A stretch of 64,000 bases of DNA, from positions 1 to 64,000 of the forward strand of contig CAILEP010000034.1 in NCBI GenBank assembly GCA_903833275.1, given 5' to 3'. The position numbers were made by a program, and so were the translations under genes. Origin of the DNA: an uncultured Bdellovibrionales bacterium (GTDB lineage Bacteria; Bdellovibrionota; Bdellovibrionia; Bdellovibrionales; UBA1609). Below, piece by piece: positions 7,489 to 10,939 of the stretch. Under the pieces are notes generated by a model, which saw nothing but the letters and a program-made list of their open reading frames with translations, searched no databases and was not told the DNA's origin. The first letter of the stretch is position 1, and each line of letters opens with the position of its first letter.

Positions 7489-8346
7489 CTACTTCGCCTT
7501 ATGCCCCGACATATATTTTAAGTAAGCAAGAATCGCGCTGACATCTTTGTCTGATAGCGTGTCACTTGAAAAACTCGACATCTTCGATTCGGGCCACTTT
7601 CGCAAACTTTGGGGGTTGCGAATTAGCTTTAATATAAACGCCTCACGCAAATACTCTGTGGGCCCGTAGGGGATATTTAAATCTGGCCCGAGTTTCGAAT
7701 TGCCCTGACCATTCATGGTGTGACAAGCGAAACAGTTTTTGACAAACAAATTATAGCCGCTAACAACTGGATTAGTCGCACTCACCTCGGGGCCTGGTGC
7801 AACTTTAGGAAACTGTTTTTGAAGCGGCGGCTGAATTTCAAAACTCGCCAATTGAAAGGGCCACTCTTCGGGGCCTACTTTCGAGCGTTCGGGATGCAGC
7901 CAAACAAGATAGAACGGGCCTGCGGTTTTAGACCCCTTGCCCTTTAGCGCCGGCCATTTTTTATTCGAAGGTTCGATGGCGATATACGGTGTAGCCGCTT
8001 GCGGCGAATCACCCAGAAGACGAGACAGCGTCAACGGGGCCGAAAAGCCATCAAGACAAACAAATTGAACCGTTGCATCCGAAGGGATACTCAGCCCGCC
8101 AAAAAGCTCTTTCGCGGGCACGGCAATGTACTCCATAGTTTGCCCTGGGTACGTCGGGTCATTTGCGATTGAGATTTTCTGTGCGCTACCAAAATTAAGC
8201 AGCTCATCTCGCTTATACTCTCGGGTTGTATCATTAAATTTAATTTTTAGGACAGGCGACAACTCTTCGGCCAGCACCAACTCGCCGCTAGCTAAACTAG
8301 CGCATATAATCATATAAAATAAAATATCTCTAACCGCAGATCGCAT
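7489..8346 (-). CDS. Exported c-type cytochrome with N-terminal non-haem domain
   Basis: Periplasmic protein of 285 residues with an N-terminal signal peptide. A domain of about 150 residues follows, and then a single cytochrome c domain with NCFACH (haem cysteines C205 and C208, axial H209) and a plausible methionine ligand in SKMSSF. The middle domain (motifs FVCLDGFSAPL and GPFYLVWL) reminds me of the small molybdopterin/sulfite-oxidase fold domains often fused to cytochromes, but that is a guess without a search. The start is ATG 8346, with GAGG 6 bases upstream, rather than TTG 8358. It converges with ggt 3 bases away. It is divergent from the metzincin gene. Confidence 0.8.
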   Translation of the reverse strand: MRSAVRDILFYMIICASLASGELVLAEELSPVLKIKFNDTTREYKRDELLNFGSAQKISIANDPTYPGQTMEYIAVPAKELFGGLSIPSDATVQFVCLDGFSAPLTLSRLLGDSPQAATPYIAIEPSNKKWPALKGKGSKTAGPFYLVWLHPERSKVGPEEWPFQLASFEIQPPLQKQFPKVAPGPEVSATNPVVSGYNLFVKNCFACHTMNGQGNSKLGPDLNIPYGPTEYLREAFILKLIRNPQSLRKWPESKMSSFSSDTLSDKDVSAILAYLKYMSGHKAK

Positions 8347-8449
8347 TTGAAACCTCAATCGTTTGATTTATTGTCGAAATAGACATAACAAACCTTAGGG
8401 CTTCGTCAAGATCTGCTGTTTGTTCATCGAATCAATTTAGATTTAAAAC

Positions 8450-8478: not shown

Positions 8479-8514
8479 TGCTTCTCTCGATTGTTTTTTT
8501 AGGGGGTCATAAAA

Positions 8515-9861
8515 ATGAGTATCGCACAAAGAATTTTAGCTTCTGCTTTAGTTTTATTGGCATTAGGTTTTTCAACAATCAGCCCATCGACGTCATTTGC
8601 TTCGGCCCATAAGGCCGCTCAAAACTTCAATTTACCGAATTATTTAGACCTACCGCCAGATGCGAGTTCAGAAGACTATCAACACGCTCTGAATCAAATT
8701 CGCCTTTTTAATTTGGCAAAGCCCGGCGAATCGGTAAAAGACAATGACGGCCTCGATGCCGTTGTCGCCAGTGGTGAAAAAATTCTTCAATGGTTAAATG
8801 CCATTAATGAAAAGCGCGATGCGAGTGCAAAACTTTCATTTACTGATGCTCAACACCGCATTGGTTACCCGATCGACAAAGCCAACAAATACTCCCCCAC
8901 TATTATTTTGGCGAAACACGCTGACTTTATGGCAGCACTTAAATCAGATATTTTTCGCGCAGTGGTGACGGGCCAGGCCCCTGTTTCTAGCGACCTCCCG
9001 GCTGATCTTACGGTTGAGACTTTTTTGGATTTGGGTCGGACTCTTGATCGCATCTATCAAAGTGCAACTCGTTGGCGCATGATGCAGCCCTATCTTGACG
9101 AAATGGCGGCAAATTCTGCAAACGACGTCCGCGGTTATTATTTTCTTTCAAATCTAACCGATCGCGATCAGAAATTAGCTCAATTCGCCGCACTTTCGAC
9201 CGACGAAAAAGCCCAAATTGCAGCCTGGCTCGTGCTGATTTGTCGAAATGGTGGCAATGACACCAACACCTGCCGCACCGAACTTGATGGCTCAACCCAG
9301 AAGCAAAACGGCAATGCCATGGCTTATTACACCCAATATATAGACAACGCCAAAGCGCTCTATGACTCGTTCTTTCACATCCCCACCTATGGCCAACGCA
9401 GCGATATCACTTGGGTCGCAAATTCGGCAGATGAAACTGCCACTATCCCTTTTCTTGACCCGGCCACTGATGCCTTGCGCGCCTTTATGCGAAACGTAGA
9501 AGACGAGTGGCATTTGGGTGGCTGGCAATTAAAGTTGAATTTCGTTACTTCAGGCGATGTGGCCCACTTAATGTTTCAACCTGGTACAACTCCGCATGTA
9601 AACGCTTTGGGCGGCAATATTATAACTATGGATAAGAACACACCACTTACAGATTGGGAGAACAACTGGACCATCCGCCACGAGTTTGGGCATGTACTTG
9701 GATTCCCAGATTGCTACGTCGAATTTTATGACGATGCCGAAAAGGTCATGACTAATTATCAGCTCGATATGACTAACTTGATGTGTTCGCGCCGAGGCAA
9801 TCTCAAAGAGACACACAAAACCGAGATGACCCGAGTTTATCGGCCCACCAAGTCGCAATAG
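8515..9861 (+). CDS. Secreted metzincin-type zinc metalloprotease, Asp third ligand
   Basis: Exported protein of 448 residues with a signal peptide (cleavage predicted near SFASA). The zinc site is HEFGHVLGFPD: H389, E390, H393, G396 and D399. This is the metzincin pattern HExxHxxGxx(H/D) with Asp as third ligand, as in snapalysin. A methionine in TNLMCSR about 25-30 residues later could be the Met-turn. The ~380 residues before the site are not recognisable to me and may hold a propeptide or a binding domain. Start ATG 8515 has an AGGGGG ribosome site. The gene stands alone. A role in degrading extracellular or prey protein is an inference. Confidence 0.75.
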   Translation: MSIAQRILASALVLLALGFSTISPSTSFASAHKAAQNFNLPNYLDLPPDASSEDYQHALNQIRLFNLAKPGESVKDNDGLDAVVASGEKILQWLNAINEKRDASAKLSFTDAQHRIGYPIDKANKYSPTIILAKHADFMAALKSDIFRAVVTGQAPVSSDLPADLTVETFLDLGRTLDRIYQSATRWRMMQPYLDEMAANSANDVRGYYFLSNLTDRDQKLAQFAALSTDEKAQIAAWLVLICRNGGNDTNTCRTELDGSTQKQNGNAMAYYTQYIDNAKALYDSFFHIPTYGQRSDITWVANSADETATIPFLDPATDALRAFMRNVEDEWHLGGWQLKLNFVTSGDVAHLMFQPGTTPHVNALGGNIITMDKNTPLTDWENNWTIRHEFGHVLGFPDCYVEFYDDAEKVMTNYQLDMTNLMCSRRGNLKETHKTEMTRVYRPTKSQ

Positions 9862-9963: not shown

Positions 9964-10039
9964 GGTTGCCTCTTATATTCGCCCCCGAAGGGCACAGGCA
10001 TTGCTCTTGTAGGTGGTAGATACTCACTTGGGGGGCCAA

Positions 10040-10939
10040 ATGAAACGCAATCAAATAATTATCGCTATCTCTGGTTTATTTGTGGTTCTGAATTTTCAGA
10101 ATTGCTCAGGGGTAACATTTAGCTCAGGCCCATCCACTGGTCTCGTACAAGGTACAACGCCAGTAACTACAACTTCGGCGAACCCGCCGCCAAGTAACAA
10201 CCCACCACCTCCACCGCCGGTTGTGACAACTGTTACACCACCAATTATACCGCCTGTTATTCCGCCGGTATTGCCACCGACACCTCCGCCACCCGGCAAT
10301 AACCCACCACCTCCGCCGGTTGTGACAATTGTTACACCTCCGATTATTCCACCAGTTATCCCGCCGGTATTGCCACCGACACCTCCGCCACCCGGCAACA
10401 ATCCGCCACCTCCGCCTGTTGTAACAACAACGCCGCCTCCACCTCCGCCAACTGGCCTTTGCATCTTGGCTGATAAGGACGACAAAGATCACGATGATAA
10501 AGATCGTGATGATAAAGACCGTGATGATAAAGATCGTGACCACAAATCTGACCCTGATGTGGTCGGCGATGCACACAGCCAAGGCAATGATAAAGACCAT
10601 GCCGGTGGCAATCAGACTCTGAAAGTTGTGCAAAAACATGATCACGATGGCGATAGAAACGTCTGCATGTCGAAAAATGCCTGCGAAGTTATTGGCCTTG
10701 GCTTAGAAATGGGTACGCTCAAATTTAAACGCTCAGATGACTCAGATATGTCGTCGGCTAATCACTCTCACTTCAAAGAAGCTGAAGAAGGTGAGTGCCA
10801 TGAGAAAATTTCTGACAACGACGTCGATCACATGATCGGCCACCGCGATGACGACGACCAAGACAGAGACAATCAAGACAATGATCACCGCGACAACGAC
10901 GATGACCGCGGCGAACAACATAATGTGGCCAAAAACTAA
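10040..10939 (+). CDS. Exported Pro-rich and Asp-rich repeat protein, probable lipoprotein
   Basis: Low-complexity exported protein of 299 residues. A hydrophobic signal runs into NFQNCS, an atypical lipobox, so Cys could be lipidated. Next is a region of about 100 residues made of proline runs, built from two 33-residue units. A charged stretch of repeated D-D-K-D-R follows, then a small middle region with two or three cysteines, and the tail is again rich in Asp, His, Asn and Arg. No globular enzyme domain is visible. The acidic/His blocks could bind divalent metals; the Pro block could span the cell wall. The start is ATG 10040, with GGGGGG a few bases upstream. It ends in a 4-base stop overlap with the convergent CDF transporter gene. 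Confidence 0.7.
   Translation: MKRNQIIIAISGLFVVLNFQNCSGVTFSSGPSTGLVQGTTPVTTTSANPPPSNNPPPPPPVVTTVTPPIIPPVIPPVLPPTPPPPGNNPPPPPVVTIVTPPIIPPVIPPVLPPTPPPPGNNPPPPPVVTTTPPPPPPTGLCILADKDDKDHDDKDRDDKDRDDKDRDHKSDPDVVGDAHSQGNDKDHAGGNQTLKVVQKHDHDGDRNVCMSKNACEVIGLGLEMGTLKFKRSDDSDMSSANHSHFKEAEEGECHEKISDNDVDHMIGHRDDDDQDRDNQDNDHRDNDDDRGEQHNVAKN
10220..10434 (+). repeat. 99-bp direct repeat encoding the Pro-rich segment
   Basis: Two nearly identical 99-base units begin at 10220 and 10319, and a truncated third begins at 10418. Each encodes 33 residues containing PPIIPPVIPPVLPPT and PPPPGNNPPPPP. The unit keeps the reading frame, so copy-number change would only alter length. Confidence 0.9.
10492..10536 (+). 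repeat. 15-bp tandem repeat encoding D-D-K-D-R
   Basis: Three units of gatgataaagaycgt occur at 10492, 10507 and 10522, with degenerate copies on either side. They lie inside the repeat lipoprotein gene. Confidence 0.85.

Follow-up and report, generated by a model that had tools for sequence, protein, structure and literature searches.

The open reading frame at positions 8515 to 9861 of the window, by which the whole analysed stretch of 64,000 nucleotides is meant, raises the question of whether its product is an exported zinc peptidase of the metzincin clan carrying aspartate as the third zinc ligand, and of what the long region in front of the zinc motif contributes. The product is a real, conserved and exported Asp-type metzincin, and its family, which lies outside the libraries checked, is a new family of an already known kind of enzyme. 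The whole explanation favored here, namely an exported metzincin-clan zinc endopeptidase from outside these libraries with a docked N-terminal domain that keeps it latent, is assigned a probability of roughly 0.65. The features to which the text refers are located as follows.

8502..8506, plus strand: G-rich, ribosome-binding-like run GGGGG, 8 nt upstream of the ATG, recognized by eye
8515..9861, plus strand: gene for the 448-residue exported metzincin-type protein (open reading frame with relatives in related genomes)
8515..8607, plus strand: predicted signal peptide, residues about 1–31 (Sec-like by a crude rule, cleavage site placed by eye)
8641..9390, plus strand: predicted N-terminal all-helical domain, residues 43–292 (models of the full length and of the domain alone)
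8869..8892, plus strand: conserved segment PIDKANKY, residues 119–126 (strand 124–126 and bridge at 119 in the full-length model only)
9241..9273, plus strand: stretch of the N-terminal domain with Cys243 and Cys253, an invariant pair by conservation
9373..9852, plus strand: predicted metzincin catalytic domain, residues 287–446 (karilysin match of the predicted model)
9679..9711, plus strand: zinc motif HEFGHVLGFPD, residues 389–399 (sequence and conservation; ligand and base roles putative)
9712..9717, plus strand: Cys400, immediately behind the third ligand, and Tyr401, a putative tyrosine switch (census; roles by analogy with PMC12237041, in excerpt)
9778..9786, plus strand: Met-turn LMC, residues 422–424, whose Cys424 co-occurs with Cys400 (census)

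The motif HEFGHVLGFPD is found at residues 389–399 of the 448-residue frame, where the initial annotation had located it. At the DNA level the window contains the pattern HExxHxxGxxD a single time and none of 100 shuffles contains it. When either Asp or His is allowed in the third-ligand place, the whole genome has 12 occurrences as against 0 for the reversed control; a chance motif is ruled out by these two controls. Conservation was followed in a census of 69 open reading frames, distinct over their last 150 residues with some close neighbors remaining, which form a subset of the fetched loci, most matches from the 146 carrier genomes described below lying outside it. HExxH is present in 68 of the 69, the remaining frame (L020) stopping at a contig edge upstream of the motif. 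The invariance of D399, on which the annotation had been staked beforehand, is complete, as all 68 motif-reaching frames carry Asp as the third ligand; each of them also has Tyr two positions further on and a Met-turn-like [LIM]M[CAS], with M423 as the methionine of the window protein. The motif glycine is kept in 61 of the 68 and replaced by Arg in the other seven (L018, L035, L038, L044, L102, L104 and L105), where the motif reads HE[FY]GHILR[LM]PDCY. Arginine at this position is unusual for a metzincin.

A further cysteine pair surrounds the active site. One Cys after the third-ligand Asp and another after the Met-turn Met are both present in 65 of the 68 frames and both missing from three, and this joint presence or absence suggests a disulfide or a shared site. 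Two of the three frames lacking the pair (L021, L022 and L023) come from one genus; all three belong to remote relatives whose N-terminal part differs and whose signal peptides look lipobox-like by eye. According to PMC12237041, in excerpt, the metzincin zinc motif is HExxHxxG/NxxH/D, an Asp in third place is rare, snapalysins and thuringilysins being known examples, each family has its own residue immediately behind the third ligand, and a Tyr near the site may serve as a switch. Enzymes with HEXXHXXGXXD that lack a Met-turn are classed as Asp-zincins (PMC3890501, in excerpt), whereas the window protein has both the Met-turn methionine and a predicted metzincin fold. Judging from the model and the sequence, zinc is very probably held by two histidines and an aspartate; H389, H393 and D399 would be the ligands, E390 would act as the general base that activates the water molecule, and M423 would provide the Met-turn beneath the metal. 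By analogy Y401 would probably serve as the tyrosine switch, and a probable disulfide C400–C424 would pin the third-ligand loop to the Met-turn.

For the predicted fold, the window protein was modelled in full length with 24 relatives as input, giving a pLDDT of 88.8 and a pTM of 0.84. A fold other than metzincin is ruled out by superposition of this model with VIA-align, in which residues 287–446 match karilysin with a Z-score of 12.0 (128 residues, 3.0 Å) and the catalytic domains of human MMPs with Z-scores of about 10–11. The motif is thus placed inside a metzincin domain, a helix outside such a fold being the outcome named in advance as counting against the annotation. The zinc motif and the Met-turn methionine are present in the sequence, and the sheet, the backing helix, the active-site helix and the C-terminal helix are present in the predicted model. 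In a Foldseek search with the full model myroilysin ranks first (E 3.0e-3), snapalysin is found at E 1.5e-2 to 3.2e-2 with a probability of 1.00, and no match has an E value of 0.001 or below. A profile of 25 catalytic domains compared with the sequences of solved structures has snapalysin as its nearest match (E 2.5e-5), so that the likeness to this enzyme pointed out originally is borne out, while myroilysin is found at E 0.003–0.004 and immune inhibitor A at E 0.88. Karilysin, a bacterial MMP, and myroilysin share the catalytic fold predicted for the window protein; their third zinc ligand is His. The absence of a Foldseek match at E ≤ 0.001 and the arginine substitution in seven of 68 frames speak against the zinc-protease explanation.

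Envelope targeting or secretion of the product, likewise proposed at the outset, agrees with an export signal recognized by a crude rule and by eye. The same rule types 45 of the 69 family frames as Sec-like and 5 as lipobox-bearing and leaves 19 untyped, the latter including truncated frames and alternative starts; L011 and L050 are among a few further members that appear lipoprotein-like by eye. Promoter-like sites number 0 as against 2.5 expected in shuffles, and terminator-like sites 4 as against 1.8 expected. The next gene downstream (10013–10939, plus strand) encodes a lipoprotein-like product in which proline-rich stretches recur and whose C-terminal half is rich in Asp and His, and the upstream gene on the opposite strand (7489–8358, minus strand) an exported-looking product with a CxxCH haem-binding-like motif.

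The approximately 380 residues preceding the motif had been described as matching nothing known. The lack of a match stands, but the length does not: since the residues from about 287 onward already belong to the protease domain, the unexplained part comprises only about 250 residues (43–292). Modelled alone, this part is all-helical with a pLDDT of 90.3 and a pTM of 0.73. Structure prediction yields no counterpart for it among the solved structures searched, the best matches in the PDB having an E value of 2.7 with Foldseek and a Z-score of 4.0 with VIA; the sole match of an N-domain profile of 239 positions among solved sequences is a plant receptor kinase at E 0.074, InhA not appearing. Such a lack of Foldseek and VIA matches does not prove a new fold. 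A search with the N-terminal domain finds it in 105 of the 368 phylum genomes, and its matches fall in frames that are also family matches when the two phylum searches are compared by eye. Five frames with the domain lack the motif (in G086, G105, G212, G218 and G219), all of them running into a contig end, and hence the N-terminal domain is not seen apart from the protease domain. Identity to the window copy is 16–33% in the N-terminal and 21–58% in the catalytic domain.

A contact between the two domains is suggested by the segment at residues 119–126. In the full-length model it forms a strand at 124–126 and a bridge at 119, both of which are absent when residues 43–292 are modelled alone, and their partner should therefore lie outside this range. 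Most simply, going by the model, the partner is the catalytic domain; alternatively, the two predictions may simply differ in this strand. Within the segment, Pro is found at position 119 in 16 of 18 rows of alignment A1 and 20 of 23 rows of alignment A2; position 123, where the window copy is an exception with Ala, is Pro in 17 of 18 rows of A1 and 21 of 23 rows of A2. Alignment conservation reveals no invariant metal-binding residue in the segment.

Pro-segments of metzincins pass in front of the catalytic domain, a Cys or an Asp blocking the zinc ion (PMC6949598, in excerpt). By the preferred reading, the helical domain at residues 43–292 would dock onto the catalytic domain and would most likely act as an integral pro- or clamp domain, aiding folding and maintaining latency until the periplasm or the outside is reached. 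This explanation draws on the modelled fold, the conservation of the ligands, the co-occurrence of the cysteine pair and the occurrence of the N-terminal domain together with the protease domain. By analogy, such a pro- or clamp domain would be much larger than known pro-segments, those of karilysin and myroilysin having 14 and 37 residues (PMC6949598, in excerpt) as compared with about 250 here. If true, the zymogen mechanism would be unlike that of the short extended pro-segments of karilysin, astacins and pappalysins. Against latency speaks that no residue of the N-terminal domain could be tied to zinc. Candidates for an aspartate switch would be D45 and D204: D45 is not conserved, and D204 is invariant and the most conserved Asp of the domain, a conservation that, judged from the sequences, may be structural and to that extent also weighs against latency.

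The same protease could instead carry its N-terminal domain permanently, as an accessory domain for binding of substrate or envelope or as a scaffold; we consider this possible, with the odds somewhat against it. Conservation reveals no zinc-blocking residue in the N-terminal domain, as would be expected of an accessory part, and Cys243–Cys253, G87, W93, Y181, R186, D204 and R206, all nearly or fully conserved, fit a stable folded domain. Moreover, the lipobox of several relatives means that the domain could be a membrane spacer. Zinc-blocking pro-segments are, however, common in metzincin zymogens (PMC6949598, in excerpt), and in the model a strand of the N-terminal domain seems to make contact outside it.

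The latent-protease reading can be extended to a separate metzincin family, seen so far in genomes of Bdellovibrionota type and defined by HE[FY]GHxx[GR]xxDCY with [LIM]MC about 20 residues further on, a Cys bridge between the third-ligand loop and the Met-turn, and a helical N-terminal domain whose fold has no seen counterpart and which inserts a strand by the cleft for latency. In this full form the proposal is tentative, its chances being a little short of even. The unvarying Asp, the Met-turn cysteine pair and the large helical N-terminal domain lacking matches provide material on the evolution of the third ligand and of latency.

The family is widespread but patchy. Including the window's own genome, which has one copy, it is found in 23 of 98 related genomes by a single-sequence search and, by profile search, at class level in 41 of 143 genomes and at phylum level in 146 of 368, the last figure including remote relatives matched over the catalytic part only. 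Within the 98-genome set, genus g37, which may be Bdellovibrio, has the whole gene in 2 of 15 genomes; in another genome of this genus, G105, a fragment lies at a contig end, accompanied by a second, weak match. Named genome contigs contain at least 24 loci, so that carriers beyond the phylum are possible, and the labels of the listed loci are Bdellovibrionales, Bdellovibrionaceae, Pseudobdellovibrionaceae, Bacteriovoracaceae, Bacteriovorax, Halobacteriovorax, Oligoflexia, Bdellovibrio sp. and a few generic ones. One record (L045), a MAG named 'Streptomyces griseus', is probably mislabelled because of its G+C content of 46.6%. The family is not named in the titles or abstract openings of the papers among the matches listed. 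Carriage by phage is ruled out, as the sole match on a viral contig (L122) has HExxH and lacks HExxHxxGxxD, and no match is on a plasmid. When neighboring genes were clustered for 24 named loci (up to 6 kb per side), for 29 loci with at most about 1.5 kb and for the window, the rows not being independent, no other cluster of open reading frames occurred in more than 6 of the 54 sequences.

Action on prey, which the initial annotation had raised, finds little favor in this distribution, and a prey-directed protease needed for predation is regarded as unlikely. In favor of such a role, many genomes of this phylum, which is known for its predators, contain the family, and its product has a predicted export signal. 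According to PMC12546842, in excerpt, the secreted subtilase Bd2269 is tied to prey exit, Bd3137, which has zinc-metalloprotease homology, is among uncharacterised early-abundant proteins, and Bdellovibrio bacteriovorus has 150 predicted protease genes, a handful of which are named as studied. Yet the carriers are few among related genomes (23 of 98, 2 of 15 in g37, with only a piece in G105), this patchy presence argues against a core function in predation, neighboring genes are not widely shared, and nutrient scavenging or envelope turnover fits equally well. The predator status of the window's organism is itself taken from the labels of relatives only. The family adds an uncharacterised, predicted exported protease to this phylum.

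In order to place the family among the Asp-type metzincins, the window protein and the 24 relatives were compared with curated libraries. In Pfam the window protein matches only WapI (E 0.089, 13.4 of 27 bits), and in NCBIfam only its residues 385–408 match, namely the M6 domain with 17.8 of 110.8 bits; no curated cut-off of either library is passed. The NCBIfam cut-offs for M6 and snapalysin are reached by none of the 24 relatives nor by the window protein, the best snapalysin score among the relatives being 25.1 of 300 bits. Pfam M7 is reached by none of the 24, the nearest being L030 with 22.3 of 25 bits, and Pfam M6 by one, the remote L050, with 25.4 of 22 bits. Snapalysin (M7, from Streptomyces) resembles the window protein in its small metzincin core, in the Asp that serves as third ligand and in the Tyr two positions later, but it is a single domain of 132–134 residues, whereas the window family has an additional helical N-terminal domain of 250 residues and the Cys pair around the Met-turn; the window protein itself gives no M7 match. 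Igalysins (M64, IgAse) share the Asp ligand, with the next residue and the Met-turn forming part of a stabilizing site, but have an extra residue, HExxHxxxGxxD (PMC12237041, in excerpt); as this residue is absent from the window protein, M64 membership is ruled out. Archaemetzincins (M54) also have a Cys directly after the third ligand but differ by a His ligand and four Cys in the motif HEXXHXXGXXHCX4CXMX17CXXC (PMC3427221, in excerpt); M54 membership is ruled out by the Asp ligand of the window protein and by its second Cys, which follows the Met instead of preceding it.

A divergent M6 peptidase of the immune inhibitor A type, to which the thuringilysins belong, is improbable. These enzymes also use Asp as the third ligand (PMC12237041, in excerpt) and match the family weakly across the active site; 24 of the 25 aligned members give M6-domain matches at E ≤ 1, and L050 passes the Pfam cut-off. 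The window protein nevertheless lies far below the NCBIfam M6 cut-off and has no Pfam M6 match, 0 of 24 relatives reach the former and 23 of 24 miss the latter, the matches barely extend past the active site, solved InhA is reached at E 0.88 only, and the N-domain profile has no InhA match. A non-catalytic metzincin-like protein with a purely structural metal site, with which the lack of a known substrate and the seven Arg-for-Gly members would agree, is very improbable, as HExxH and Asp are kept in all 68 motif-reaching frames.

Other genes with metzincin motifs are found in the window's own genome (G000). A second Asp-type metzincin-like family has the motif HE[ML]GHAFGLCDTY and, after it, a turn with VM or AM, in frames of 287–314 residues. 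Its sites are C15:845 and C15:1793, which lie side by side, C20:105442 and C4:8105, the last in a frame of 100 residues within the stretch retrieved. Its loci (L110, L115, L116 and L118) have only weak matrixin-type Pfam matches, and it aligns with the window family over 20 columns only. The genome also holds two astacins (L114 and L120), two matrixin-like frames (L112 and L119) and three long frames with HE[MIV]GH[NT]LGLRH (L111, L113 and L117).
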